Shown: piece after piece, positions 15,257 to 29,569 of the stretch
Layout: every line of letters begins with the position of its first letter
How positions within the stretch are numbered: position 1 is the first letter of the stretch
Source of the DNA: Ruminococcus sp.
Lineage (GTDB): Bacteria > Bacillota > Clostridia > Oscillospirales > Ruminococcaceae
Assembly: GCA_020860605.1 (NCBI GenBank)
Contig: JAJBTZ010000090.1
Location: 457,441 to 521,313, forward strand
Direction: 5' to 3'
Length of the DNA stretch: 63,873 bases
Program-made: the position numbers and the translations under genes
The notes under the pieces: generated by a model
Databases searched by the model: none
What the model saw: the letters and a program-made list of their open reading frames with translations, nothing else
Told to the model about the DNA's origin: nothing

Positions 15257-16207
15257 TTATTTGTCCTGGAAATCGTGATGGCACTTCTTTCGAGGGAAGG
15301 ACACGACGATGAAGAGGAGGATTATTAAGGGAACCGCCACGCAGATTGACACGATGAGCGAGTCGATCTTATATGCCTCAGCTGTGACGCGGATTGTCGT
15401 CTTCGCAGCCTCAGTCTCGATGCGATGGCCACGAACCAGCAGCCTCTGGGTGTTGATGCCGTAGGGCGTGCAGGTCATCAGCGTCACATAGTCCTGACCG
15501 TCCTCGATATAGAGATCCTGAAGCTCATAGGGGTAGATGATGCTAATCTTATCGACCTCATACGTCAGAACCTCGTTCAGGATTGTTATCGTGAAGGTGT
15601 CGCCGAGCTCCATCTGGTCTAAGTGTGTGAAGAGGGTCGCCGACGGGAGTCCTCTATGAGCAGAAATGACGCAATGGGTGCTCTCCCCGCCGACAGGCAG
15701 GCTCGAGCCCTCAAGGTGGCCGGCAGCGATCTGCAAAACACTTGCAGAAGTTCCATGATAGATGGGGAGCTGGACGCTTATCTTATCAATCGTGATATAG
15801 CCCATGACGCCAGTGCCGGAGACATTCAGCAAGCTGTCATACCCCTCGAGCAAATCCGGGTTTGAAAGCGCCATCGCAGAGCCAAGCGAAGCCACCGCCT
15901 CGTTATACTGGTTAGCAGCCTCGAAGAGCTCTGAATAGTCCGTCTCAGACAGCGAAGAAACCGCCTCGTCATAGCTCGCGACGACCTTCGTTGAAACCCT
16001 CTCGTTCCACCAGTTGGAAAATGTCGGATAGACGACAATAGCGATCCCAAGGAGCAGAGTCAGGACGAGCAAAAACGTCACCGGCGACCTCTTCCCCTCC
16101 TGCCGTCTCTCCGCTCTCTTCTGAGCCCTGGCCTTCTTCCTGCGGTTCTTGACATCGTCAAGGGTCAGCACCTTAGGAGTGAAATCTTTTTCGTTATTAC
16201 CTTCCAC
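15257..16207 (-). CDS. Class C (pilus-type) sortase
   Basis: This membrane transpeptidase (316 aa) should join pilin subunits through LPXTG-like signals. A Lys/Arg-rich cytoplasmic stub is followed by a helix at about 44-61 and a second helix at 284-303 near the C-terminus, the two-helix topology of class C enzymes. The catalytic triad is His184 ([12 protein letters not shown]), Cys246 ([12 protein letters not shown]) and Arg255 (RLLVRGHRI). [20 protein letters not shown] and [12 protein letters not shown] are class C hallmarks. The usual DPF/DPW lid is not seen; [12 protein letters not shown] occupies that region. The start is GTG with AAGGAG 10 bp upstream. A DUF559 gene and repeats separate it from its likely pilin substrates. 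Confidence 0.9.
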
Positions 16208-17042: not shown

Positions 17043-18785
17043 TTAATCTTCCTTATTCCCAAGTCTCTTCTTAGTAATCAACAGCACCACCGCGCCGACC
17101 ACCAAGATTCCACCGACGACGTAGAAGATGGTAGTACCAATGCCACCGGTTTCGGGCATGTTAGCACCTTGACTATTCAAGATTCTGATATTGCTCTGCC
17201 CTTCATTATCGCTAATAGAACTTGTACCGTAATCAACAAGTGTCTTAGTAGTACTGTTGATCTTGAACATAATATCTGCAGTCAAAGGGTTGAAGCCTTG
17301 TGGAGTATCGGTCTCTTTAAGGTAGTAAGTTTCATCAGCATCAAGACCAGCTATCTTGAAAGTACCATCAGAAGCAGTTGTTATCTGTGTAACATTATCT
17401 GGATCAGTGTCTGTTGTGCCGTTAACAACCCAATATCCATGCGTTGGCGAATCAAGATCGTCATCGTATGTAACATCAACATAAGTCGGTGTATTAGAAC
17501 CGTCAAGGTAATACAGCTTGAATCCGACATTCTCCAAAGCAGTTACACCAGCATAAGCATCATTGTAATACTTATAAGCTTCTACTTCGTAGACATAGGT
17601 CATAGTTGTGCTCTTTGCAGTGTAAGAGCTGTTACCATATGTTACATAAGTCTGGTTGTCGTTTGATTCATCATAAACCTCGGCGTCAGATGTAACAGTC
17701 GCTTTGTAGCTGACTATCATGTAGGAATCTTCATCAACATAGTTGTATGCTGATGTAGTCAGGTCGAAAATGATGTCGAAATCGCCCAAAACATAGTAAT
17801 CAGTGTCAGGATCAGGAGTAGCTACACCAGTAACCACTGTATATGGAGGATTCGAGGTAGCATCATAGGTATAGTAAGTTGTGTCTCCGAAAGCAGTCAG
17901 CTTGCCAACCATGTAGTATACACCAGAGTCTTCGACAGAGTAGTCACCATCATTAGTCTGCAACGTTGATTCTGTTCCTGCGTCTGTTCCACTGTAGAGC
18001 TTTATTACGATAGAATCAATGTAAATGTCTAATCCTGCTTCTGCAAGATCATGCATAACAAGATTTGTAGCATCATTGATGTTTGTAATCTTTACTTGGA
18101 AGTAAACATCGTCACCAATCTGAGCGTTGTTCTCTTTGCTATTCGTATCGTAAGTCTGACCAGCTTCATCGTAGACTGTCTTATCAACACTTGGGTTTTC
18201 GTTTTTGTCATTAAGAGTAGCAGTTGTCGGATACGTTCCACCTACAGCAACCGCAGAACCAACAGTAGTTGTTACAAAGTAGTAGCCAGGTGTATTACCT
18301 GTAATACTGATCGTAGCAGAACCGTTATCTGCTACTCCTTGTGCAGTAGCATAAGAATGTGAAGTATCTGTATCCACTTGGGTCTTCAAAGCTGATACAA
18401 CTTCAGATGCAAGATAACTGTCCGACCCAGTAGCTGCATCTAAAACTTCAACAATATAAGTTGCGTTTGTACTATCAGTTGCAGTAAGCTTGAAGTAGGC
18501 AGTTGAAGATGCAGTCGAGACTACAGCTCCTGTATTGCTGTATACATCAGACAAATAATAAATTGTATTGTAAAAGAAGCTTTTTGAGCTCAATGTATAG
18601 ATGTATGTAGAGCCAGACGCTTCCGCGTCAAAGATCTTATAAGCATAGTAGATTTCACCATCGTTGTTTGCTCCGTCAGGTGTATTAACAACAATGCTGT
18701 AGTCATCTGCCGACACACTTACCGCCAAGCTCATTATCATCGTTATCGCCAAGATAACGGCCATTATTTTTCTTAAATTTGTCAT
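17043..18785 (-). CDS. Major pilin, isopeptide-forming fimbrial subunit with MPETG sorting signal
   Basis: This secreted 580-aa protein has a Sec signal peptide (about residues 1-26, ending SVSADD). A central D2-type isopeptide-forming domain begins near NPSVDKTVYDEAGQTYDT, and a Cna-B/SpaA-type domain carries an E-box YYLKETDTPQGF that would supply the catalytic Glu for a Lys-Asn crosslink. The C-terminus has MPETGG at 543-548, a hydrophobic helix and the short basic tail KKRLGNKED, the normal cell-wall sorting signal. It is the likely pilus shaft polymerised by the class C sortase at 15.3 kb. A classical YPKN pilin motif is not seen. AAGGAG precedes the ATG by 8 bp. Confidence 0.87.
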   Translation of the reverse strand: MTNLRKIMAVILAITMIMSLAVSVSADDYSIVVNTPDGANNDGEIYYAYKIFDAEASGSTYIYTLSSKSFFYNTIYYLSDVYSNTGAVVSTASSTAYFKLTATDSTNATYIVEVLDAATGSDSYLASEVVSALKTQVDTDTSHSYATAQGVADNGSATISITGNTPGYYFVTTTVGSAVAVGGTYPTTATLNDKNENPSVDKTVYDEAGQTYDTNSKENNAQIGDDVYFQVKITNINDATNLVMHDLAEAGLDIYIDSIVIKLYSGTDAGTESTLQTNDGDYSVEDSGVYYMVGKLTAFGDTTYYTYDATSNPPYTVVTGVATPDPDTDYYVLGDFDIIFDLTTSAYNYVDEDSYMIVSYKATVTSDAEVYDESNDNQTYVTYGNSSYTAKSTTMTYVYEVEAYKYYNDAYAGVTALENVGFKLYYLDGSNTPTYVDVTYDDDLDSPTHGYWVVNGTTDTDPDNVTQITTASDGTFKIAGLDADETYYLKETDTPQGFNPLTADIMFKINSTTKTLVDYGTSSISDNEGQSNIRILNSQGANMPETGGIGTTIFYVVGGILVVGAVVLLITKKRLGNKED

Positions 18786-19084: not shown

Positions 19085-22000
19085 TCACCCTGCTTCATCT
19101 GGTCCTGCCCTTGTGTCCCCCTTTCTTACGATTCTTGGAATTTCGAATTTGCGAGTTCTCACGTCGGGAACACTCTCGTGGTCGGGGCGAGGGACCCGTT
19201 CGCGGGTCGGCTCCTCCACAAGACTCTTCTTCTGACGTGAAATGTTTCTATAAGCTCCCGCTCCGAAAAGCGACAGCAAAATCAGCATTACGCCGAATTC
19301 GTACATACGGGTGTAGTCGATCGAGATGCCTGTCTCTGGGAGGACGTAGGAGGTCGCGAGGTTGGAGATGACAATCTCTCCGCCTCCGTTCTCGCCTTCA
19401 GTCTGAGAATATGTCGTCGTGAAGGCAGTCGTCCCGCCGGAGTAGCTGGTTTCGAGGAAGTAGTAGTTGCGGTTGAGGGTGACGGTCTTGCCGTTATAGG
19501 TGACATCAAGCGTCAACGGCAGATTCGCCACGGCAACGGTGAAGTTGTTAGAACTGTTGAGGGTGTAGACATAGGAGGTGCCAGTGCCGTCAGTATAGGG
19601 CACTCCCGCGCCTGTCGAGACGCCGATGAGGCTCGACTTGAGGAAGGTGTCCTCCGCCACGAGCTCAGCAGTCGTGACGACCTTAAGGTCGGTGACGGTG
19701 GCAGAGAACTGTGACCCGCTGATTGCGAGAACAAGGGCGTTATAATCCGCAAACACCGCAGCAGCGTTGGTATAAGAGTTATTCGCGAGCTGCTGCCTTA
19801 TATCGGCGGAGGAGTAGGTCAGATAGTAGACGGTGTTGCCACTCGAATCAGTTCCCGAAGAAACCGTCGGCGAAACACTCGCCAGCGTGCCGTATTCATT
19901 AAACGACTTATCGCCCTGAATCAGCAGCGAGATGTTATTGAGAACTGATACTTCATCCGCTGTGTCAACCCCTGTTAAAGTTATCACGACATTCGAGTCG
20001 AGATCAGAGTAAATAGCGTCGAAGAAAGCATAACCAGTGAAGTCAGTGTTTGTCTCCGTGTTATTAGTCCCCGAATAGTTATACGTAGGCTCGCTCCCCG
20101 CATTGGAAATAGCGTTCCAGGTGTTGTTGGTCTGGCCACTGTGGCTGATGGTGATGGTGCCATCCCCATTGCCACTGTAAGTCTGCCCACCATCCTCAGT
20201 CACACCCACCAAGTAAGGATGATACAGCGTAACCGCGTAACTCGCATCCGAGGCAATAACGCCCGAGATCGATTCGGTGACGGTGTAGGGGGTGAGGATG
20301 GAGACGGAGGTTATAGTGATACAATCTGCACTGTTTGTTGTGACAATTATTGCATTATAATCATTTAGATCATATGTACTACCATTTAGAAGTTTTGAAG
20401 CATCTACAGAAATGTAGCCACTGCCAACCTTGATTTGAGATGTAACATTATACCAGTCAGGACTGCTATAATCCGTGGTATATTGGATACCAACTTGTGT
20501 ACTGGTTGGAACACTTGTACATGTATAACCGATGTATATAACTGCACCTTCGGTTTCAAGCGCGCTTATCACATCAGAAGCATCCCAATTATATTCTTCA
20601 CGAGTGAGGAAGGTTGGCCAACCGTATTGTGCAATTGCAGTACTATAATCGCTTGTTTCGGTATATACGTATGTCTGCTTTGACGTTGTACCAGTTGCAG
20701 GTACGACAACTTTGATCTCCGTTATTTCTGCGTCTATACAGCCATTAAGCCATATACAATTAAGGTCATCATAACTGAAATAAGCTCCGTTATTTTCCAA
20801 AGTCAAGTCATCAACGCTCACTGATATAGTTCCTGACCCAGCAGAAATATCAGTTAATTGAATGTATTTTTGCGGATATATAGTAGATCCACCATCAATA
20901 TACTCACTTTGTAAACCTATCTGCAATGTACCACCATCAGATGTAGCAGTATAAGTTACACAGATCAAAGCACCGTCTTGCTGTAAGGCTTCAGCAATAG
21001 TATCGATACTACCACTAAAGTAATTGCTATACCAGTTTCCAGTCCATGTTGATGACACCATTGTCTTAGAAATGGTACCTGACGTTGCAATCAAGCTAGC
21101 GGGTGTAACGATTTCAAAGCTTACCATAGTAGCATCTTCTGGCGTGCTGTTGCCAAAGCTCAGGAACAAGTCATTCCAAATTGCACTGATTTCGTCGGCT
21201 GTATCATAACCGGCGGACACAAACTTCTCTTTGAGCTCGCTCAAGCTAAATGTAACAGTGTTGTAACCTGTCGAAGGAGAATCAGATACCGAGCCAGAAT
21301 TAGGAACATAGAATACAACATCGCCATAGTTATTTCCAATCTTCGATTGGAATACCAATTGCATATCACTCGTGCTGACAGCGTTATTAATGACTACTTC
21401 AATATATGAATCTTCATAGTCTTCATCAAACATCGCAGCTATAACATTATCCCTAAAAGTCGTGCTATAATTGGAAACACTGTTCCATTCACTGACATTG
21501 TATGTTATACCACCTACAACTGTATTGTTATAGAGCGAACGAGTAGTTGTAAAACTGTACAGCGTCGCTGTAGTATCTGCTACTACGCCAGTTGACGTCG
21601 TCAACGTCACCAGCTCCGTCGCGGTGGACGTGGTGGAGGTTTGGGTGGCTTCGCCATTGGTGACGGTGTAGACGTTGCCTTGATCGTCGGTGAGGTAGTA
21701 GTAGAGCTGGACCTCAGCAGAATAGCCGGAAGTGTTGGTGATTTCCTCGCCGTCGGTGCCGATCCAGACCTTGGTCACTTCGATCGTGGTCGAGGTCTCG
21801 GTGTTGGTGGCGGTCACGGAGGCACTGCCGGAGGAGAGGTCGATGGCGGTGGCGTAGGTGAGGCCGTCGGTTGTTCCAGTAGTGGTGGCCCAGGTCGAAG
21901 GTCGATCGTGGTCGTCGCCACTGTCAGCACTCCACCAGAAGTAGAACTCGGTGTTATCTTCCCAACCGATGTTGTAGCCATCGGCAGCGGTGACCTCGGT

Positions 22001-25000
22001 CAGCTTGTAGGCTTTGTTGGTGGTGAAGACTGACTCGTCATAGGTTATCTTTATGACGCCGTTCGAGTCGGTCTTATATGTGCCGATTTTCTTCCAGATT
22101 TCGTCTCCAGAGGTGTTGACGCCTTCATAGGAGTAGAGGGCAAACGTCGCTCCAGAGATAGTGCCACCGTCAGTGTTGCTGACTTTGGTCAGTTCGAATG
22201 AGGTTATCGGTGTGTTGTAGATGTAGAAGCTGGAGCCAGTCGCCGTGGTAATCCTGCTGACTTCGGTGGACGAATCCCAATCATAGGGATATCTACTACT
22301 CATAGAGTCGTAAGTTGGTGAAGCAGTTGAACTGTCATCATACCAATAGAAGTAATGCTTCGTCTCACTATCAAGGAGATAGTCTCCAGGAACGTAGGTC
22401 TCTACGATATAGTAAAGAGTGTTTGGCTTGTACCAGGCTTCATAAGCAGTTGCATTTCCGCTGTTATCTCTGTCAGTCACTGGGTTTATTGTTATAGTAC
22501 CACCACTGCCGGTTGTGAAGGTTACGGCTGTGCCAGTATCTTTGCCGTCCTCTGTCGCTGGTTTCCATTCTCCTGCGGTAGAATCATACCAATACAGCGC
22601 AAACACTGCTCCTGGAATGGATGTGGAAGTGTGAGCACCAGACTTGACAATCGTCAAGCCACCGGCATTGGAGATGGTGCCGGTTATCTTAGGCTCGTAG
22701 TAGGTGTAGGTTCCATCCGAATCAGAATCGACGGGAATGTTTTGCTCGCCTGTCAAGGTGGCTGTATTCACCAGATATATACCCTGCCCGTCATAACTGC
22801 TTGACCAGTTATTTTCATAAGTTATGTAATACGAATACTCTACTAAAATGGCAGTTTCATCAGGAACTTCTGCTGTTAATTCGTGATAGTAGTCGTTAGA
22901 CCATTGGGACGCAAAGTATTCCGAATAATCCCAGTCTATATTCATCTTCACCTTGTAATAGTAGGTGATAGATTTATCTGACTCTGTAAATGGATAAATT
23001 GATGAGCTGTAGCCTGACCAGCTTGTGAAATCTGAGCCAGTGTAAAGCGTTACAGTATTATTATCATCATCCACATAAGTATAGGTATACTCGCCACCGC
23101 CCAAATCAGTTACAGTTACCTTGTAAAGCTTATAGAAGGCCACAGAGTTGTAGATCAGGTTGGCATACAACTGTTGGTTGTATTCCTCATATGTCATCAA
23201 CAAGTCAGTGAATGTCAGAGGCTCGCCGTTGTTGAGCGTTTCTTCATCAAGATTCACTGCGACGTAATAGTCAAGTATATTGTCGCCATCAGAAGCATTC
23301 ATGCCTGAAGAATCAACATTCTTTTCAACAGGGTCATGATCATAAGTGGTTGTCGTGCCTTGATCAACATAGGTATGAGTGATATCCTGCTCCTGAGTAT
23401 CTTCGCCATATTTGACGCTGTTGAGTTCAACGTAAACAGAATTCTTAAGTTCATAGGTTACATCCGCTTGTTCTGTTCCCCATCCATCAATTGTAGTAGT
23501 GTAGGTCAGAACGATATAGCCGTTGTTACGGTCGATTGAATCAATATAAGCGTTGTTAGGAATGTTGACCGTCACTACGGTTGGACTATTTGCTCCTGTT
23601 GTTAACTCTCCTGTCACATTGGTATTATTAAACGTAACTGTCGACAAATCGCTGCCATTAACTTCCATCGTCTGCGTACTATACCCTATCTGCACCTTAA
23701 CGGATGAGAGAGTGACCTCAGCAGGGAGAGTATCGGTGATGACCAGATCGCCTGATGTACCATCTAAATCAGAGATATCAACATAGACCTTCCATGTAAC
23801 AGTTCCGTCGGAAGAGGTTGTGGTCTTGGAAGTGGTAGAAGCATTGCCGTCGCCATCGGTCTTATAAACACTCTCGCGCCAGGTATAGCTTGCAGGGTCA
23901 TATGTCGAGCCGACATAAAGCGTGTTGGCATAGGTATGACTCTTGCTCACGCCTTCGGTCGTGCCTGTAGATTCGTAACTCCAGGTAATAGCGCCGGGGC
24001 CAGCGATATTCTTATTGAGAGTTATCTGCCAGACAGTAAACTTATAGTCAGCATAAGTAGCAGTATCATTAAGTATTGTCTGGTAGTCAATCCAGCCAAT
24101 CCTATTACCATTAGCATCAAAAGCGAATACTTGGACTGAATAATCGCCACTTTGATAGTAGTAGGTATCACTGCCATTGCCAGTATCATTAACAGTAATC
24201 GTTCCACCAGTCGAGCTGGCTATATCTTTCATGAAATCGGTCAGCTGCTCATAAGTGAAGTACTGATAAAGCGAAGACAAAGTATAGTATGAATAGTTGT
24301 CGCCGTACTCGCTGTTGCCGAGATAGTCCGCAATTATTGTGCCCTTGCCAATGCCAGTTGAGGGGATTGTAATAACAGAAGTCCATGAAAGCGTAAGAGT
24401 GCCGTCGGAATTTTCGACAACTGTGTCGATATCCTTGGCGACGGAGCCGGAGCTGTAAACCTGGAACTCGTTGGAGTCTTCGCCGACGGAGTTGCCATTT
24501 GCGTCGGTTACGTCAACTTCGTTATGCACCCACGTGCTACTGCCCATGCTTATGCCTGAGTCGGTGGTGTAGGTAATGGTGTAAGTAAGCCTATTGGCGT
24601 CATTCGTGCTATCACCATCCTCATCTGTAACCGCCAGGAACTTATAGCCGGTAATGTTGCCGTTAGTGTCCTTTACCACAGTATAGTCGGTGCCTTCTGT
24701 AGCGGTGGTGTTCTGATCATAGGTAATTGTGATGTCACTTGCCTGTGAGAACATATCATCGGAAAGAGTATAGCCAGCGATATTTGCGCCAGAGGTATTG
24801 AACTTGATGATCCAGGTTATCTCGCCGGTGTCGGAGTCATACGAATACGACTTATCTACCTCAACCTCGGAAGTTTCAACAGTTTTGGTTACGGTGGCAC
24901 CGTCAGTGATGGTGTCGTTGTCCTTTTTAGATGTCGCCTCAGCAGAGTTCTTGATAGACGAGCTTACGGTGCCAGTAAGTTCATCAAAGTAAACCGTGTA

Positions 25001-27655
25001 TTGGATGGTGTAGCGGTCGCCGTCAGATCCAACAGGTTCGTACTGTGTACCATTGACTGCGTCTGAACCAGTAAGGGGTGACAAAGTAATCGAAAGAGAA
25101 CCTGCATCTGCATCTGTGGTGGCATTGTAGTATAAATCGGTTTCTGAACCAGTTATGGTATCAGTAGTGCTTGTAACCGTACTACCCGTTACCCACGACA
25201 GCCAATAGTAAGAATTATCGCTCGAATAATTTCTGACGCTGTATTCATAGGTAACGTCGCCGACCTCAATTCTATCTATGGTTACATCAGTCGTATAAGT
25301 GTAGTTATTGAGGATTTCGAGAATATCAGACAGCTCAATAACGCCAGTACCACTTTCGGAAGTGATTGTGACGGTGTATGTTATCGAATTGTTGGTATAG
25401 TCATAGTTAGTTGCGGTTTTGGTGACAGTGAGGTCCTGCACCCATGACTCGTTCTCCTCTTTTTCGATGGAGCTGACTGGGATAATAATTTTCAAGTTAT
25501 CGCCATAGGATATAGTAACATCGGTGCCATCGGATTCAACCTCTTCGGCAGGGATAGCATACTGCGTATAGTCGATCTTGCCTGTTAGGGCATCTCCCGT
25601 ACTGTGTGCACTATAGTAATCTTCAACATCAAAGACTACTTTGATGTAGTACTGTCCTGAGGTTGAATCGTACTCATAGTAGTAGTGATAAGCTATGGTA
25701 TTTTCATCCATACCATTTCTTTCAACATTCAAAACACTATCGTCAACTTCAACACCTTCAGGGAGATAGATATAATATGTCGCATATACCCCGTTATCTG
25801 GTTGTATATTACTACCGTCAAGATTAAAAGTTGTGACAAGCTCAAGAGAAAGGCTTCCGTCAGAATAAGAAACATTGGAAGCTGTCCATGTAACAGTAGA
25901 AGTTGACAGTTTGGTGCCATCTTCATAATAAAGTACATCTGCTGAGTACGTTGTAGTGCTTGGCTCATCCTCCAACGTAGAAACCCCATACGGATCATAC
26001 CCGACCGTTCCCACGAAATAGTAGTAGACTTCGTCTGTTAAGGTGTTGACCTTGTCGTATTCTTCGGTGGTGAGGGCCAGGGTGCCGGCTTCTTCTTCGG
26101 CGTAAATTTGTTCCCAGATGGCCATCAGCTGGGTCCAGACGGACTCGGCGGTGGCAGTGTTGGCGGAGGTCAGGGTCAGAGCGTAGGTGTAAAGCTCGGT
26201 CACTTGCGTGACGTAGTCGGTGGCGGTGGAGGTCAGAAGGAGGGTTTCCTCCTCGGCTTCGGTTTCCTCCTCGGCTTCGGTTTCCTCCTCGGCTTCGGTT
26301 TCCTCTGCTTCGGTTTCGCCAGTTTCGGTCTCTTCTTCAGAGGCGGTTTCTTCAGTGAGCTCTTCAGTTGGTTCATCCTCAACTTCGACAGCTTCTTCCT
26401 CGACGATTACTTCTTCCTCGAGGTCGGCCTCCGTTTCATCGACGGTTTCAGTCACTTCTTCTGGCTCGATTTCAGCGGTGTAGGTGACGTTGGCGTAGCC
26501 CAAAATAGCCGGTGTTACTTCGGCTTCGGCATTTTCAGGGTCGGAAGAAACGGTGACGATTTCTGGCTCGGTGGCGGTTTCGGTCGCTGTGCTGTAGGAG
26601 ACGAGGGCGACGGTGTCGGTCGAGCTGCCTTCTGAATTGGTGATGGTATAGTTGCCCTGGATGACGGTGATTGTCTGATTGGTTTCGTCGATGAAAATGA
26701 CTATAGCGGTCACGTCTGCCCTGCCGTCGAGGTCGTTGTCGATGAAAACAACGTCGCCAACCACAGGAGAATAGCTGTCAACGGTCTGATAGTAGCCTGA
26801 GTTTGCAAGATCAATAGACCAGGCGTAGGCGCCGGAATTGTATGTAAAGTCATCTGCTATTACAGCATAATCAAGGCAGAATGCGACAAACATCGAATCC
26901 CAGTCGGAATATTCGCTTCCGTAATATGTACCGCCATACCACGCGCCATAGCGGGTGTAGCCCATGTGGGTTGTGCCGTCATCGGCAAGTGTGTAGTTGG
27001 CTGTTGATTCGGTGTAACCGAGCTGTGAATAAGCGATATTGACGATGTCGGTTCTCAGGTCATTGGTGAGTACAGGAAGGGTCGCTTCCCAGACTGAAGC
27101 GTCTTCAATATCCGCTGTCAGGTCGACGAGGCAGTCGACGGTGTGAGTGTGCTCTTCAAGGCCACAGGTAAGGGTCTTTTCGTAACATTCGTCAGTATGA
27201 GCATGAGCTTCGGCCTCTTCCAGACCACAAATCAGTACGAGCTGAGTTTCATAACAGGACTCGCCATGGGTGTGGCCTTCAGACTCTTCCAGAGCGCAGA
27301 CGAGGTTTCCCTCTTCATCGTAGCAGGATTCATCGTGAGTATGGCCTTCCGACTCCTTCAAACCGCAGACAAGAGCCTGCTGCTCTTCGTAGCAGGAGTC
27401 ATCATGAGTGTGGCCTTCAGTTTCCTCCAGGGTGCAGATAAGTGTGTATTCGTAGCACTCGTCTGTGTGGACATGCTCCTCGTAACCGCAATAGGTTTCA
27501 TTGGTCATGGTGATGCCAGTATAGCGGAGCTGCCAATAGACGATGAGGGACACTACAAGCGCTAAAATAAGCAAAACAGACCCAAGCAATAATCGCTGAC
27601 GGCGATCGTGCCTGAATCTGTCTATGTACTTTAGCATCGTGCTTCCCATACCCAT
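19085..27655 (-). CDS. Giant LPETG-anchored multidomain adhesin, probable pilus tip or ancillary subunit
   Basis: A single 2,856-residue surface protein. Order: membrane/signal helix (22-41); six Cys-HxHxxxC repeats (about 56-176); a CHAP-like fold (202-352) without its catalytic Cys and His; an acidic Glu/Thr linker (about 370-490) partly encoded by 18-bp tandem repeats; at least five adhesin/isopeptide-type beta domains (about 560-1650); two SpaA-type domains (from LTIVKSGAHTSTSIPGAVFA and FELTKVSNTDGGTISGATFA); a Cna-B-like domain (EVTKVWIGTDGEEI); about four tandem beta-sandwich modules (about 2030-2700) in an AT-richer stretch; LPETG at 2772-2776, a helix and an unusually long 54-residue basic tail. 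It lies upstream of the pilin and sortase. Starts at 27667 (GTG), 27655 and 27649 are possible; AAAGG supports the ATGs. Confidence 0.88.
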   Translation of the reverse strand: MGMGSTMLKYIDRFRHDRRQRLLLGSVLLILALVVSLIVYWQLRYTGITMTNETYCGYEEHVHTDECYEYTLICTLEETEGHTHDDSCYEEQQALVCGLKESEGHTHDESCYDEEGNLVCALEESEGHTHGESCYETQLVLICGLEEAEAHAHTDECYEKTLTCGLEEHTHTVDCLVDLTADIEDASVWEATLPVLTNDLRTDIVNIAYSQLGYTESTANYTLADDGTTHMGYTRYGAWYGGTYYGSEYSDWDSMFVAFCLDYAVIADDFTYNSGAYAWSIDLANSGYYQTVDSYSPVVGDVVFIDNDLDGRADVTAIVIFIDETNQTITVIQGNYTITNSEGSSTDTVALVSYSTATETATEPEIVTVSSDPENAEAEVTPAILGYANVTYTAEIEPEEVTETVDETEADLEEEVIVEEEAVEVEDEPTEELTEETASEEETETGETEAEETEAEEETEAEEETEAEEETLLLTSTATDYVTQVTELYTYALTLTSANTATAESVWTQLMAIWEQIYAEEEAGTLALTTEEYDKVNTLTDEVYYYFVGTVGYDPYGVSTLEDEPSTTTYSADVLYYEDGTKLSTSTVTWTASNVSYSDGSLSLELVTTFNLDGSNIQPDNGVYATYYIYLPEGVEVDDSVLNVERNGMDENTIAYHYYYEYDSTSGQYYIKVVFDVEDYYSAHSTGDALTGKIDYTQYAIPAEEVESDGTDVTISYGDNLKIIIPVSSIEKEENESWVQDLTVTKTATNYDYTNNSITYTVTITSESGTGVIELSDILEILNNYTYTTDVTIDRIEVGDVTYEYSVRNYSSDNSYYWLSWVTGSTVTSTTDTITGSETDLYYNATTDADAGSLSITLSPLTGSDAVNGTQYEPVGSDGDRYTIQYTVYFDELTGTVSSSIKNSAEATSKKDNDTITDGATVTKTVETSEVEVDKSYSYDSDTGEITWIIKFNTSGANIAGYTLSDDMFSQASDITITYDQNTTATEGTDYTVVKDTNGNITGYKFLAVTDEDGDSTNDANRLTYTITYTTDSGISMGSSTWVHNEVDVTDANGNSVGEDSNEFQVYSSGSVAKDIDTVVENSDGTLTLSWTSVITIPSTGIGKGTIIADYLGNSEYGDNYSYYTLSSLYQYFTYEQLTDFMKDIASSTGGTITVNDTGNGSDTYYYQSGDYSVQVFAFDANGNRIGWIDYQTILNDTATYADYKFTVWQITLNKNIAGPGAITWSYESTGTTEGVSKSHTYANTLYVGSTYDPASYTWRESVYKTDGDGNASTTSKTTTSSDGTVTWKVYVDISDLDGTSGDLVITDTLPAEVTLSSVKVQIGYSTQTMEVNGSDLSTVTFNNTNVTGELTTGANSPTVVTVNIPNNAYIDSIDRNNGYIVLTYTTTIDGWGTEQADVTYELKNSVYVELNSVKYGEDTQEQDITHTYVDQGTTTTYDHDPVEKNVDSSGMNASDGDNILDYYVAVNLDEETLNNGEPLTFTDLLMTYEEYNQQLYANLIYNSVAFYKLYKVTVTDLGGGEYTYTYVDDDNNTVTLYTGSDFTSWSGYSSSIYPFTESDKSITYYYKVKMNIDWDYSEYFASQWSNDYYHELTAEVPDETAILVEYSYYITYENNWSSSYDGQGIYLVNTATLTGEQNIPVDSDSDGTYTYYEPKITGTISNAGGLTIVKSGAHTSTSIPGAVFALYWYDSTAGEWKPATEDGKDTGTAVTFTTGSGGTITINPVTDRDNSGNATAYEAWYKPNTLYYIVETYVPGDYLLDSETKHYFYWYDDSSTASPTYDSMSSRYPYDWDSSTEVSRITTATGSSFYIYNTPITSFELTKVSNTDGGTISGATFALYSYEGVNTSGDEIWKKIGTYKTDSNGVIKITYDESVFTTNKAYKLTEVTAADGYNIGWEDNTEFYFWWSADSGDDHDRPSTWATTTGTTDGLTYATAIDLSSGSASVTATNTETSTTIEVTKVWIGTDGEEITNTSGYSAEVQLYYYLTDDQGNVYTVTNGEATQTSTTSTATELVTLTTSTGVVADTTATLYSFTTTRSLYNNTVVGGITYNVSEWNSVSNYSTTFRDNVIAAMFDEDYEDSYIEVVINNAVSTSDMQLVFQSKIGNNYGDVVFYVPNSGSVSDSPSTGYNTVTFSLSELKEKFVSAGYDTADEISAIWNDLFLSFGNSTPEDATMVSFEIVTPASLIATSGTISKTMVSSTWTGNWYSNYFSGSIDTIAEALQQDGALICVTYTATSDGGTLQIGLQSEYIDGGSTIYPQKYIQLTDISAGSGTISVSVDDLTLENNGAYFSYDDLNCIWLNGCIDAEITEIKVVVPATGTTSKQTYVYTETSDYSTAIAQYGWPTFLTREEYNWDASDVISALETEGAVIYIGYTCTSVPTSTQVGIQYTTDYSSPDWYNVTSQIKVGSGYISVDASKLLNGSTYDLNDYNAIIVTTNSADCITITSVSILTPYTVTESISGVIASDASYAVTLYHPYLVGVTEDGGQTYSGNGDGTITISHSGQTNNTWNAISNAGSEPTYNYSGTNNTETNTDFTGYAFFDAIYSDLDSNVVITLTGVDTADEVSVLNNISLLIQGDKSFNEYGTLASVSPTVSSGTDSSGNTVYYLTYSSADIRQQLANNSYTNAAAVFADYNALVLAISGSQFSATVTDLKVVTTAELVAEDTFLKSSLIGVSTGAGVPYTDGTGTSYVYTLNSSNNFTVAVANLPLTLDVTYNGKTVTLNRNYYFLETSYSGGTTAFTTTYSQTEGENGGGEIVISNLATSYVLPETGISIDYTRMYEFGVMLILLSLFGAGAYRNISRQKKSLVEEPTRERVPRPDHESVPDVRTRKFEIPRIVRKGDTRAGPDEAG
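26245..26313. repeat. 18-bp tandem repeats inside the adhesin gene
   Basis: TTTCCTCCTCGGCTTCGG occurs three times without change (26245-26298) and a 15-bp variant follows. The coded minus-strand peptide is a repeated EEETEA. Copy number changes would keep the reading frame. Confidence 0.92.
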
Positions 27656-27696
27656 CGCGCCTTTCACAGCAGCTTGGTGTTACTCAAAAATATTGG

Positions 27697-27726
27697 ATTA
27701 TAATCGCCTAGACTTTTTAATCCGAA
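27697..27726 (-). promoter_or_regulatory. Possible own promoter of the giant adhesin gene
   Basis: On the minus strand a TATAAT (27697-27702) follows TTCGGA (27721-27726) by 18 bp, overlapping the end of the AP2 gene. The -35 is poor (3 of 6), so this may be weak; no terminator separates the two genes. Confidence 0.4.
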
Positions 27727-28599
27727 TTACTTCTCCGGCGCCGACTTCCCATTCTCGGACGGGAGATATTCGTTGTAATACCAGCCAATAAAATTTTCGT
27801 GTACTTCTTCTCCGCACTCACGTGCTTTGATGGCATCTTCCTTTTTTTCAAATGATCCGAGATAATACGACTTGCCACAGAAGCCTATTCTTGCATACCA
27901 TCTACTGCTGCCTTTGCTCCAGTAGACACCAGTGTGTCCACTCGTGTTGGTTGAACGGAGCCTGAATTTGCTCGATTCAAGTGCTGCTATCGAGGTTCCT
28001 CCGACAAGCTTCAGATTTCTTTCGCATGCATCGGAACGCATACATCCACAGCTCTTCGTCTGACCGCTCTGGAGGTGAGACTGGCTGACTATGACTTCGT
28101 TGCCACAATCGCATCTGCACTTCCATCTGTGTACTCCATTTTCTTTTCCGGCGTATTCGGTGACTGTGAGCCTGCCGAAACGTTTGCCTACATAGTTCTT
28201 GAGGCTCGGATGCGAAAGGCATCCACAGCTCTTGCGATAGCCCGACTGGAGCTGATGAAGCCTGACGTCGATTTCTCCTCCACAATCGCAAATGCAGTGC
28301 CAGACAGTATCGCCATAGGCACTGCGAGCATTTGTGCAATAAACTGCTGTAAGCTTTCCGAAGCGCTTCCCGGTTATATCCTTCTGTCTGGGATTCACTT
28401 TTGATACGCATCCGCAGTCCAGAGCGGTTCCTCGCCTTAGGGTTCTCATATCCACGAGTATCTCATTTCCGCAGTCGCACCGGCATTTCCAGACGATATA
28501 GCCGTTTTTCCGTTCGCCAGAGTCACACAGCACTGTAAGCCGTCCGAATCTATCGCCTTCGGCGATGGATGGCTTAACCTTTCTATTACCTGAAGGCAT
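27727..28599 (-). CDS. AP2-domain protein with three zinc-ribbon-like repeats
   Basis: This 290-aa protein has three repeats of about 50 residues (15-65, 76-128, 137-187), each with the pattern G.RFGRLTV...W.CRCDCGNE...L..G...SCGC. They supply a CxCxC and CGC set that could bind zinc. A C-terminal AP2/ERF-type DNA-binding domain spans about 220-268 (GVYWSKGSSRWYARIGFCGK, YYLGSFEKKEDAIKAREC). Single-repeat relatives are common in phage and mobile-element proteins of Firmicutes, often with AP2 or HNH domains; function is not established. AGGGGAG 5 bp before ATG 28599 decides the start. It sits between the switch-like region and the adhesin gene, so it could be a locus regulator. Confidence 0.78.
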   Translation of the reverse strand: MPSGNRKVKPSIAEGDRFGRLTVLCDSGERKNGYIVWKCRCDCGNEILVDMRTLRRGTALDCGCVSKVNPRQKDITGKRFGKLTAVYCTNARSAYGDTVWHCICDCGGEIDVRLHQLQSGYRKSCGCLSHPSLKNYVGKRFGRLTVTEYAGKENGVHRWKCRCDCGNEVIVSQSHLQSGQTKSCGCMRSDACERNLKLVGGTSIAALESSKFRLRSTNTSGHTGVYWSKGSSRWYARIGFCGKSYYLGSFEKKEDAIKARECGEEVHENFIGWYYNEYLPSENGKSAPEK

Positions 28600-28637
28600 C
28601 CTGACTCCCCTCATATTTTTTTATACTACGAGACAAG

Positions 28638-28649
28638 AAGGTGTACCTT
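28638..28649 (-). other. Candidate recombinase crossover site 1 (inverted copy)
   Basis: AAGGTGTACCTT: 5-bp inverted arms around an asymmetric GT centre (28643-28644), extended to TTTTT on the right. It is the reverse complement of sites 2 and 3 and lies 39 bp upstream of the AP2 start codon. Confidence 0.6.
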
Positions 28650-28712
28650 TTTAACGGTAATTATTGTCTAAATACTGCGAAAAAAATTTTGAGATTTTTG
28701 CACAATTTGCAC

Positions 28713-28741
28713 TTGCATTTGTGTTGAATGTGTGTTATAAT
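28713..28741 (+). promoter_or_regulatory. Strong sigma-A promoter inside the candidate invertible segment
   Basis: TTGCAT (28713-28718), 17 bp, perfect TATAAT (28736-28741). It fires on the plus strand, toward the 3' end of the recombinase gene and into a terminator at 28868-28893, with no coding sequence in its path. It lies between site 1 and sites 2/3. Confidence 0.75.
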
Positions 28742-28784
28742 AACAAGCACAAGATAATCTGTAGCAAAAAAATTGTACGACAAA

Positions 28785-28796
28785 AAGGTACACCTT
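28785..28796 (+). other. Candidate recombinase crossover site 2
   Basis: AAGGTACACCTT with AC centre at 28790-28791 and an AAA extension on the left, giving AAAAAGGTACACCTT. It is inverted with respect to site 1; the distance between centres is 147 bp. Confidence 0.6.
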
Positions 28797-28808
28797 GCTG
28801 TCGCCTAT

Positions 28809-28820
28809 AAGGTACACCTT
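28809..28820 (+). other. Candidate recombinase crossover or accessory site 3
   Basis: AAGGTACACCTT with AC centre at 28814-28815, extended to TTTTT on the right. Its centre is 24 bp from that of site 2. With site 2 it forms a larger imperfect inverted repeat, so it may be an accessory binding site rather than a second crossover site. Confidence 0.55.
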
Positions 28821-28867
28821 TTTGGCACAATTGAGTAGATTTAATCTTTATTTAACCGAAAGCTAAC

Positions 28868-28893
28868 AAAGCCACATCACTGTGGCTTTTTTT
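28868..28893 (+). terminator. Terminator facing the switch promoter
   Basis: AAAGCCACA (28868-28876), loop TCAC, TGTGGCTTT (28881-28889) and a T7 run on the plus strand. The T-run overlaps the recombinase stop codon. It would stop transcripts from 28713-28741; it may also terminate the recombinase mRNA weakly on the other strand. Confidence 0.8.
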
Positions 28894-29491
28894 ATGCTCT
28901 GCTTTCGTATCTTTCGGCACGGTATCTGAAGGTTGAAACCGCCATTCCGCACTCTTTTGCTGCTCCTGTGCAGGAGTTTTCTCCCGATTTCCAGCGCCGA
29001 TAGCAATCGTCGAAGTTCTCTGGAAGTGGAGAAGGAGCCCTTCCGCATCTGACTCCCCTCGCCTTCGCTGCTGCGATGCCCTCCGCCTGACGCTGGCGGA
29101 TATTCGTCCTCTCGTTCTCTGCAACAAACGAGAGAACCTGAAGCACAATGTCCGAGACGAAGGTGCCGATAAGGTCTTTGCCACGTCTTGTGTCGAGAAG
29201 AGGCATGTCGATAACACATATATCAATCCCCTTTTCTTTCGTCAGAAACCGCCATTGCTCCTGAATTTCCTCATAGTTTCGCCCGAGTCGGTCGATGCTC
29301 TTTATGTAGAGCAGGTCGCCCGGCTTCATTTTTTTAATGAGCAACTGATACTTTGGGCGATCGAAGTCCTTTCCGCTCTGCTTGTCAAGCAGGATGTTCT
29401 TCTCGGGGACATTCTGCTCCCGCATAGCGATCATCTGCCTGTCCTCGTTCTGGTCACGGGTGCTAACTCTCACATAGCCATAAATCTTCAT
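28892..29491 (-). CDS. Small serine recombinase (resolvase/invertase family)
   Basis: This 199-aa site-specific recombinase has catalytic Ser10 in YGYVRVSTRDQNEDRQ, the conserved arginines near residues 68-71 (IDRLGRN), a long E-helix region (VLSFVAENERTNIRQRQAEG) and a C-terminal helix-turn-helix (about 160-199, TGAAKECGMAVSTFRYR). Size and layout match resolvases and DNA invertases, not large serine integrases. MKIYGYVR is the standard N-terminus and GAGGT precedes it, so 29491 is the start. No transposase accompanies it, and its neighbours are three inverted/direct copies of a palindromic 12-mer. A promoter invertase role fits best; plasmid-type or Tn resolvase is the alternative. Confidence 0.9.
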   Translation of the reverse strand: MKIYGYVRVSTRDQNEDRQMIAMREQNVPEKNILLDKQSGKDFDRPKYQLLIKKMKPGDLLYIKSIDRLGRNYEEIQEQWRFLTKEKGIDICVIDMPLLDTRRGKDLIGTFVSDIVLQVLSFVAENERTNIRQRQAEGIAAAKARGVRCGRAPSPLPENFDDCYRRWKSGENSCTGAAKECGMAVSTFRYRAERYESRA

Positions 29492-29523: not shown

Positions 29524-29569
29524 AAAAAGGTGCCAGATTTATTATATCTGACACCTGAGCGAGGTTCAA
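29524..29569 (-). promoter_or_regulatory. Recombinase promoter with overlapping palindromic operator
   Basis: On the minus strand TTGAAC (29564-29569), 17 bp, TATAAT (29541-29546). An 11-bp inverted repeat (29528-29538 with 29546-29556) surrounds the -10. Its right end on the minus strand reads as AAAAAGGT on the plus strand (29524-29531), identical to the first 8 bases of crossover site 2 with its extension. The same palindrome followed by T5 could also form an attenuator-like hairpin in an upstream transcript. Confidence 0.65.

Follow-up and report, generated by a model that had tools for sequence, protein, structure and literature searches.

What does a small serine recombinase do directly in front of a group of surface-protein genes, and does the DNA between them act as a switch? 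The stretch analyzed here, 63,873 nucleotides in length (the window), comes from a draft genome of 2.28 Mb with Oscillospiraceae MAGs as its near relatives. Along the minus strand, the recombinase gene is followed by about 290 bp of non-coding DNA and then by genes for an AP2-like protein, an LPETG surface protein, a SpaA pilin-like protein, a DUF559 protein, and a class C sortase.

29541..29569, minus strand: putative recombinase promoter TTGAAC-17-TATAAT (promoter scan), within a conserved dyad
28892..29491, minus strand: small serine recombinase of 199 aa, proposed invertase (PF00239, E=4.1e-27; phrog_125 'DNA invertase', E=3.8e-51)
27727..28599, minus strand: AP2-like protein with three zinc-ribbon-like repeats (translation), first gene downstream of the switch
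19085..27667, minus strand: giant surface protein of 2860 aa with C-terminal LPETG (translation), proposed phase-variable adhesin
17043..18785, minus strand: pilin-like SpaA protein with LPXTG anchor (profile matches); a shared transcript with the switch is only putative
15257..16207, minus strand: class C (pilus) sortase (NF033745, 268.5 bits, cut-off 160); a shared transcript with the switch is only putative

Promoter switches operated by serine invertases, and invertons in general, are of a known kind. We consider it highly likely that this locus is one of them, a self-contained invertible promoter (inverton) of the serine recombinase that would flip the AP2-like gene and the adhesin ON or OFF.

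The recombinase frame, whose start we corrected to ATG 29491, is intact and matches the resolvase N-terminal catalytic domain (PF00239) with 95.5 bits against a cut-off of 23.3. It carries Y-x-R-x-S and D-R-L-x-R type motifs, the active-site motifs of small serine recombinases, and loose patterns for these two motifs recur in 80/80 and 78/80 of the fetched relatives, respectively. Its −10 box is enclosed by a dyad, AGGTGTCAGAT-ATAATAA-ATCTGGCACCT, followed by a T-run (window 29528-29569); a similar dyad and T-run lie upstream of the recombinase in the related loci L063-L066, with a diverged version in L067. This dyad could be an operator or, with the promoter placed in its loop, a terminator of transcripts arriving from upstream. 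The AP2-like gene probably starts at ATG 28599. Its product reaches 18.2 bits against AP2 (PF00847), below the Pfam gathering cut-off of 33.3, and also hits phage families annotated as HNH endonuclease (phrog_374 and others); homologs of 71-84% identity occupy the same position in four relatives.

Between the recombinase and the AP2-like gene lie three 12-mers of the form AAGGT-NN-ACCTT (28638, 28785, and 28809), each with 5-bp inverted arms, and with GT as the central dinucleotide of the first copy and AC in the other two. Positions, asymmetric 2-bp centers, and the reversal of the first copy all agree with what a sequence-only reading of this DNA had claimed. The exact AAGGTGTACCTT is confined to these three places in the whole 2.28-Mb draft genome (93 contigs), in which a reversed control pattern has one match, and among 5000 first-order Markov shuffles of a 1700-bp stretch, two contained such a 12-mer and none contained two. 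With one mismatch allowed, three matches in the whole window are unremarkable (shuffle mean 1.46; 15/100 reached 3); it is by exactness, clustering, and orientation that the 12-mers stand out, not by the one-mismatch count. The 12-mer had been taken for the site itself, and while it does form the core, its extent had to be revised: the functional site covers about 28 bp, not 12, and reads roughly TTTACAGGAATGT-GT-ACNTTYCTGTAAA across the recombinase family.

28630..28657, plus strand: recombination site 1, 28 bp, core GT, PWM 20.8 (12-mer 28638-28649)
28713..28741, plus strand: extended −10 promoter TTGCAT-17-TGnTATAAT, inside the segment, pointing away from the adhesin genes (OFF)
28777..28804, minus strand: recombination site 2, core GT on the minus strand, 147 bp from site 1, PWM 23.8
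28801..28828, minus strand: recombination site 3, intact 12-mer core with weaker flanks, 171 bp from site 1, PWM 9.9
28868..28889, plus strand: hairpin terminator (terminator scan), called on both strands

The window locus thereby presents two inverted sites with an asymmetric 2-bp core, as expected of an inverton, and site 2 is the best-fitting partner of site 1 within the window by matrix score. The promoter postulated at 28713-28741 is indeed found between the sites, as TTGCAT-17-TATAAT with an extended −10 TGn. It is missing from the list of our default consensus promoter scan because that scan demands at least 4/6 matching −35 bases and the −35 here has only 3/6. A promoter in the segment occurs in 5/5 clade members checked (the window, L064, L065, L066, and L067), in L067 as TTGCAA-17-TAAAAT. 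The terminator proposed downstream of it likewise corresponds to a hairpin called by the terminator scan (28868-28889), and none is seen there by eye in the close relatives L064, L065, and L066. A small RNA gene of about 150 nt, made up of the OFF promoter, a hairpin of sites 2 and 3, and the terminator, is not claimed (fold z = −2.77, with 2/200 shuffles as stable; nothing above gathering in Rfam, and sub-threshold matches only at a loose E-value), since the hairpin follows from the near-palindromic sites 2 and 3.

Is the segment found inverted elsewhere? We searched 60 relatives with the switch stretch; nine had some match, and the whole segment was matched in G024, G025, and G030. In G025 and G030, the segment match lies on the strand opposite to that of the neighboring recombinase end, as reading of the sequences confirms. 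These genomes share contigs with the recombinase loci described below (L065 is G025, L066 is G024, L064 is G030, L067 is G027, and L063 is G013), and the two sets are therefore not independent. The promoter faces the AP2 gene in G025/L065 and G030/L064 and points the opposite way in G024/L066 and the window, with the flanks unchanged. Between L064 and L066, 190 bp are inverted at 95.8% identity, with collinear flanks on either side (97.9% over 142 bp and 100% over 29 bp), and L065 is inverted relative to the window at 80% over 195 bp. A second pair of loci, L112 and L125, shows 164 bp inverted at 97.0% identity between flanks of 98.6% and 97.7%, before cargo of restriction-methylase type. In G024, G025, and G030, as in the window, a recombinase gene adjoins the sites. 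The comparison of orientations that the sequence-only reading had proposed, once run, finds the segment in both orientations, the hallmark of an inverton, between related species. This is the opposite of one outcome that the reading had named as a refutation, a lack of inversion in every related strain.

The sequences of L064 and L066 further reveal that the outer half-sites stay in place and the inner half-sites are swapped, which locates the crossover within the shared core around the central GT; serine recombinases cut at the central dinucleotide, and exchange within the core is expected of them. A third, degenerate core lies on the recombinase side in L066 and on the AP2 side in L064, and this change of sides indicates that the outer pair, homologous to site 3, was used in that lineage. 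Given both orientations in relatives, the exchange in the shared core, and the second pair L112/L125, the locus is very probably a promoter switch of a serine invertase, with the window in the OFF orientation. The inverted segments and the half-site exchange lend support to the earlier proposal of an invertible promoter controlled by such an enzyme. Site structure, inversion between species, exchange of core half-sites, and promoter conservation are what sequence comparison gives.

Some sequences diverge or end at the first site. In L063 (same contig as L046), homology to L066 stops inside the first-site core, right after GTGTAC, and neither the far site nor the AP2 gene is present, a pattern suggestive of a rearrangement at that very site. 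The contigs of L082 and L099 break off precisely at ...GTGTAC in the first site. Contig ends at ≤150 bp occur in 6/80 loci on the 3' side versus 1/80 on the 5' side, which are small numbers, and the excess vanishes with distance (7 versus 6 of 80 at 500 bp, 7 versus 8 at 1000 bp). Contig ends at the first site would fit coexisting orientations in one sample and offer minor support for them.

In the mechanism we propose, the recombinase (28892-29491) would bind the 28-bp sites as dimers, pair two oppositely oriented sites, cut the central GT/AC dinucleotide, and rejoin the ends with the DNA between them flipped. The flipped unit would measure 147 bp (between the centers of sites 1 and 2) or 171 bp (sites 1 and 3) and would carry one strong promoter. 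In the OFF state, represented by the window, this promoter would point toward the recombinase, its transcript ending at the 28868 hairpin before the recombinase gene is reached; in the ON state, the inverted promoter would aim into the AP2-like gene and read on to the giant adhesin. From adjacency and co-conservation, we infer that this recombinase acts on these sites; flipping in this strain, the ensuing transcription, and the adhesin as the payload that matters are predicted in the same spirit.

Could the element instead resolve DNA or regulate its own recombinase, as a res-type resolvase site or a set of autoregulation sites? The closest solved relatives of the recombinase are the Sin and gamma-delta resolvases, with Sin of staphylococcal plasmids nearest in sequence (2r0q, E=2.3e-27), and the window locus has three sites, as do many res loci. 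However, whereas Sin is a resolvase, the window's recombinase family shows inversion: the outer sites are inverted, the segment is found inverted between relatives, and outside the window's close relatives the site listing gives two positions per locus, not three. Resolution would act between directly repeated sites. As the segment is inverted in relatives, we reject this reading, to which we give hardly any credence. That the switch is a fossil, with recombinase or sites dead in this strain and the locus locked OFF, would accord with the weak flanks of the window's outer site (PWM 9.9), with the extra terminator that has appeared in the window, and with the relative L063, in which the far half-site and AP2 are absent. 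Against this, the recombinase frame is intact with its serine and arginine motifs, and sites 1 and 2 keep intact cores and fit the family matrix, which leaves a dead switch quite improbable.

The inversion may also be real and yet have the AP2-like protein, as a regulator or recombination accessory factor, for its main target, with the adhesin expressed separately. AP2 is the first gene, and it is kept with the recombinase even in L067/G027, where the gene after AP2 is not an adhesin, so that the adhesin is not an obligatory target. More distant AP2-like genes, whose segments share about 40% identity with the window's, directly follow the recombinase and switch in three loci of other clades (L090, L094, and L116), meaning that AP2-like genes recur as first cargo gene; in addition, a TATAAT-like sequence precedes the adhesin. 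Yet AP2-like matches occur in just 7/80 loci (L064-L067, L090, L094, and L116), and elsewhere the switch therefore directly precedes other genes. Moreover, the terminator scan lists no minus-strand terminator at 27600-28600, that is, between the AP2-like gene and the adhesin, which makes read-through plausible, and a paralogous adhesin without an evident promoter of its own suggests, by eye, reading from upstream. On balance, we find AP2 as the main target unlikely but not negligible.

That paralog, a second giant adhesin of the same type elsewhere in the genome (G000:C23:397606-398613; L161, L164), has an open frame of 2777 aa and 79% identity to the window adhesin over the first 341 residues. 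The site scan found no switch site near it within the stretch fetched. It closely follows a signal peptidase-like gene, also judged by eye, and this arrangement suggests that adhesins of this type are read from upstream genes.

In the preferred reading, a promoter switch of the AP2-like gene and the adhesin, the control once claimed over both genes is thus kept in graded form: the AP2-like gene stands as the first target, and the adhesin would be reached only via read-through, there being no intervening terminator listed. The order of AP2-like gene and giant adhesin is the same in G024, G025, and G030. Control of the pilin and sortase genes by the switch, also part of the earlier claim, is only putative; gaps of about 300 bp before the pilin, 240 bp before DUF559, and 150 bp before the sortase separate these genes, a promoter-like TTGACA-17-TACAAT (11/12) at 16816-16788 overlaps the start of the DUF559 frame, and a terminator-like hairpin (15253-15223) directly follows the sortase. 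The sortase, perhaps together with the DUF559 gene, may be transcribed from a promoter of its own at 16816-16788. The locus points to DNA inversion as an on/off switch for surface adhesins in uncultured Oscillospiraceae.

How widespread is this arrangement? A search of a genome collection counted 488 recombinase relatives, of which the best 80 were fetched. The site matrix was evaluated by two-fold hold-out, trained on one half and tested on the other, in place of a matrix trained on the loci that it scored. Six of the 80 loci were too short for the scan, leaving 74 held-out loci with a search zone of 360 bp after the recombinase. An inverted site pair scoring above 20 lies just 3' of the recombinase in 64 of these 74, with no convincing pair in the other 10. 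Control stretches from the same loci gave no pair in 594 and none above 5.3, and none of 222 shuffles exceeded 8.9. Sequence comparison accordingly assigns the switch to a Clostridia family, in which it stands in front of many kinds of gene, and the site motif together with the recombinase family makes such switches findable by simple sequence search. A simple promoter score called 13 ON-like, 44 OFF-like, and 6 undecided of 63, a tally that carries no conclusion because the score is uncalibrated and called L066 undecided where the alignment says OFF. In L036, two AAGGTATACCTT sites (L036:2122 and L036:2248) lie 126 bp apart after a 63% identical recombinase; their AT core is symmetric, so that orientation there cannot come from the core dinucleotide.

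Relatives of the recombinase also occur on phage contigs, with 13 in IMG/VR, among them L146-L156 at 58-74% identity. A 3' scan of 12 such loci gave negative best scores in all 11 with enough sequence (L148 had too little), and a whole-locus scan of 11 (L146-L156, with L157 left out) found no pair and one weak single site in L151. Hence, some members of the recombinase family do not drive a switch of this kind, and those on phage contigs may invert something else.

The distances between paired sites are not evenly distributed. In the held-out loci, center-to-center spacings fall into bands of 113-117, 127, 134-140, and 146-149 bp, followed by 161, 169, and 170 bp. Thinning at 93% positional recombinase identity left 42 loci, for which a scan of periods from 6 to 20 bp gave a best period of 10.7 bp. 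At 10.5 bp, these loci yield a mean vector of 0.77 and an approximate Rayleigh p of 1.5e-11, which is too small because the loci are related to one another; when each length is counted once, p is about 0.002. The spacing class changes at least 11 times on a tree of 92 recombinases, many of whose forks are unsupported. Such phasing would reflect selection that keeps both sites on one face of a short loop. With Hin/Gin and the Salmonella flagellar switch, the locus shares a small serine recombinase, two inverted sites of about 26-28 bp, and a flipped promoter. Hin inverts about 1 kb with a Fis-bound enhancer between the sites, according to the accessible text of PMC3798978. Here, in contrast, the sites are 113-170 bp apart with a spacing that follows the helical repeat, leaving little room for a separate enhancer as judged from the spacing. 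We tentatively suggest, at somewhat less than even chances, a portable cassette of recombinase, two helically phased sites, and promoter, placed before unrelated cargo in gut Clostridia and inverting without a Fis-type enhancer, in which the sites would lie on the same face of a very short loop and the bending and twist of 11-16 helical turns would serve as control instead. Its cargo would comprise adhesins, S-layer proteins, DNA methyltransferases, restriction enzymes, acyltransferases, and an Erm-type gene. The phased short spacing offers a testable clue to how a serine invertase could function without a classical enhancer.

Among known systems, Mpi, the master invertase of Bacteroides fragilis, is a serine invertase that flips surface-gene promoters, many of them distant. 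The present switch resembles it in flipping promoters of surface genes with a serine invertase and differs from it in that the exact core occurs at one locus only in the genome; the recombinase scores 41.8 bits against the Mpi family model NF009949, whose cut-off is 272. The gut invertons of the PhaseFinder and PhaseFinderDC surveys are also similar, being intergenic invertible promoters near surface genes and often beside an invertase. Among the open-access titles and abstract openings listed, none describes this recombinase and site family, which is no proof of novelty; the first inverton survey is reportedly that of Jiang et al. 2019. In the available part of PMC11892184, the most significant link between invertons and an invertase concerns a Clostridia group (32/33 invertons) with tyrosine-type recombinases, and the word 'serine' does not appear in its main text as available; one inverton group of that study, with motifs in its supplements, could be identical with the present family. 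The accessible portion of PMC5903667 reports 15 Firmicutes samples that bore inversion signatures, 14 of them Clostridia, with signaling genes prominent nearby.

In 53/61 loci, an ORF of ≥90 aa on the same strand begins no more than 300 bp from the far site. The cargo scan covered 56 of these 61 first ORFs, the longest cut at 1500 residues; L081 (which repeats L080), L136 (same first gene as L134), and L094, L102, and L116 (ORF far or doubtful) were omitted, and L112 was kept though its ORF starts 2 kb away. Among the first 25 of 42 Pfam families, we find S-layer homology (5), InlB-type repeats (4), Eco57I methylases (4), BspA leucine-rich repeats (3), SPFH (3), TadZ-like (3), C5 methylases (2), MBOAT (2), and Erm-type rRNA methylases (2), and PADLOC identifies type IIG enzymes (5 members) and type II methyltransferases. 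The cargo is diverse, with surface proteins and DNA methylases prominent, and as far as sequence tells, the same kind of switch precedes many different genes in related gut bacteria. Where the cassette stands before genes of restriction-modification type, switching may shield some cells of a gut Clostridia population from a phage and leave the rest exposed.

Resistance genes under invertible promoters have been reported only from Bacteroidales in a human gut survey, according to the accessible text of PMC8748976. In L134, L136, and L142, which are records of three genera, the cassette does not differ in its first 195 bp past the recombinase, and an Erm-type rRNA methylase gene follows the far site at 230 bp in L142 and at 1012 bp in L134 and L136. 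The switch in these three loci is a candidate driver of the Erm-type gene.
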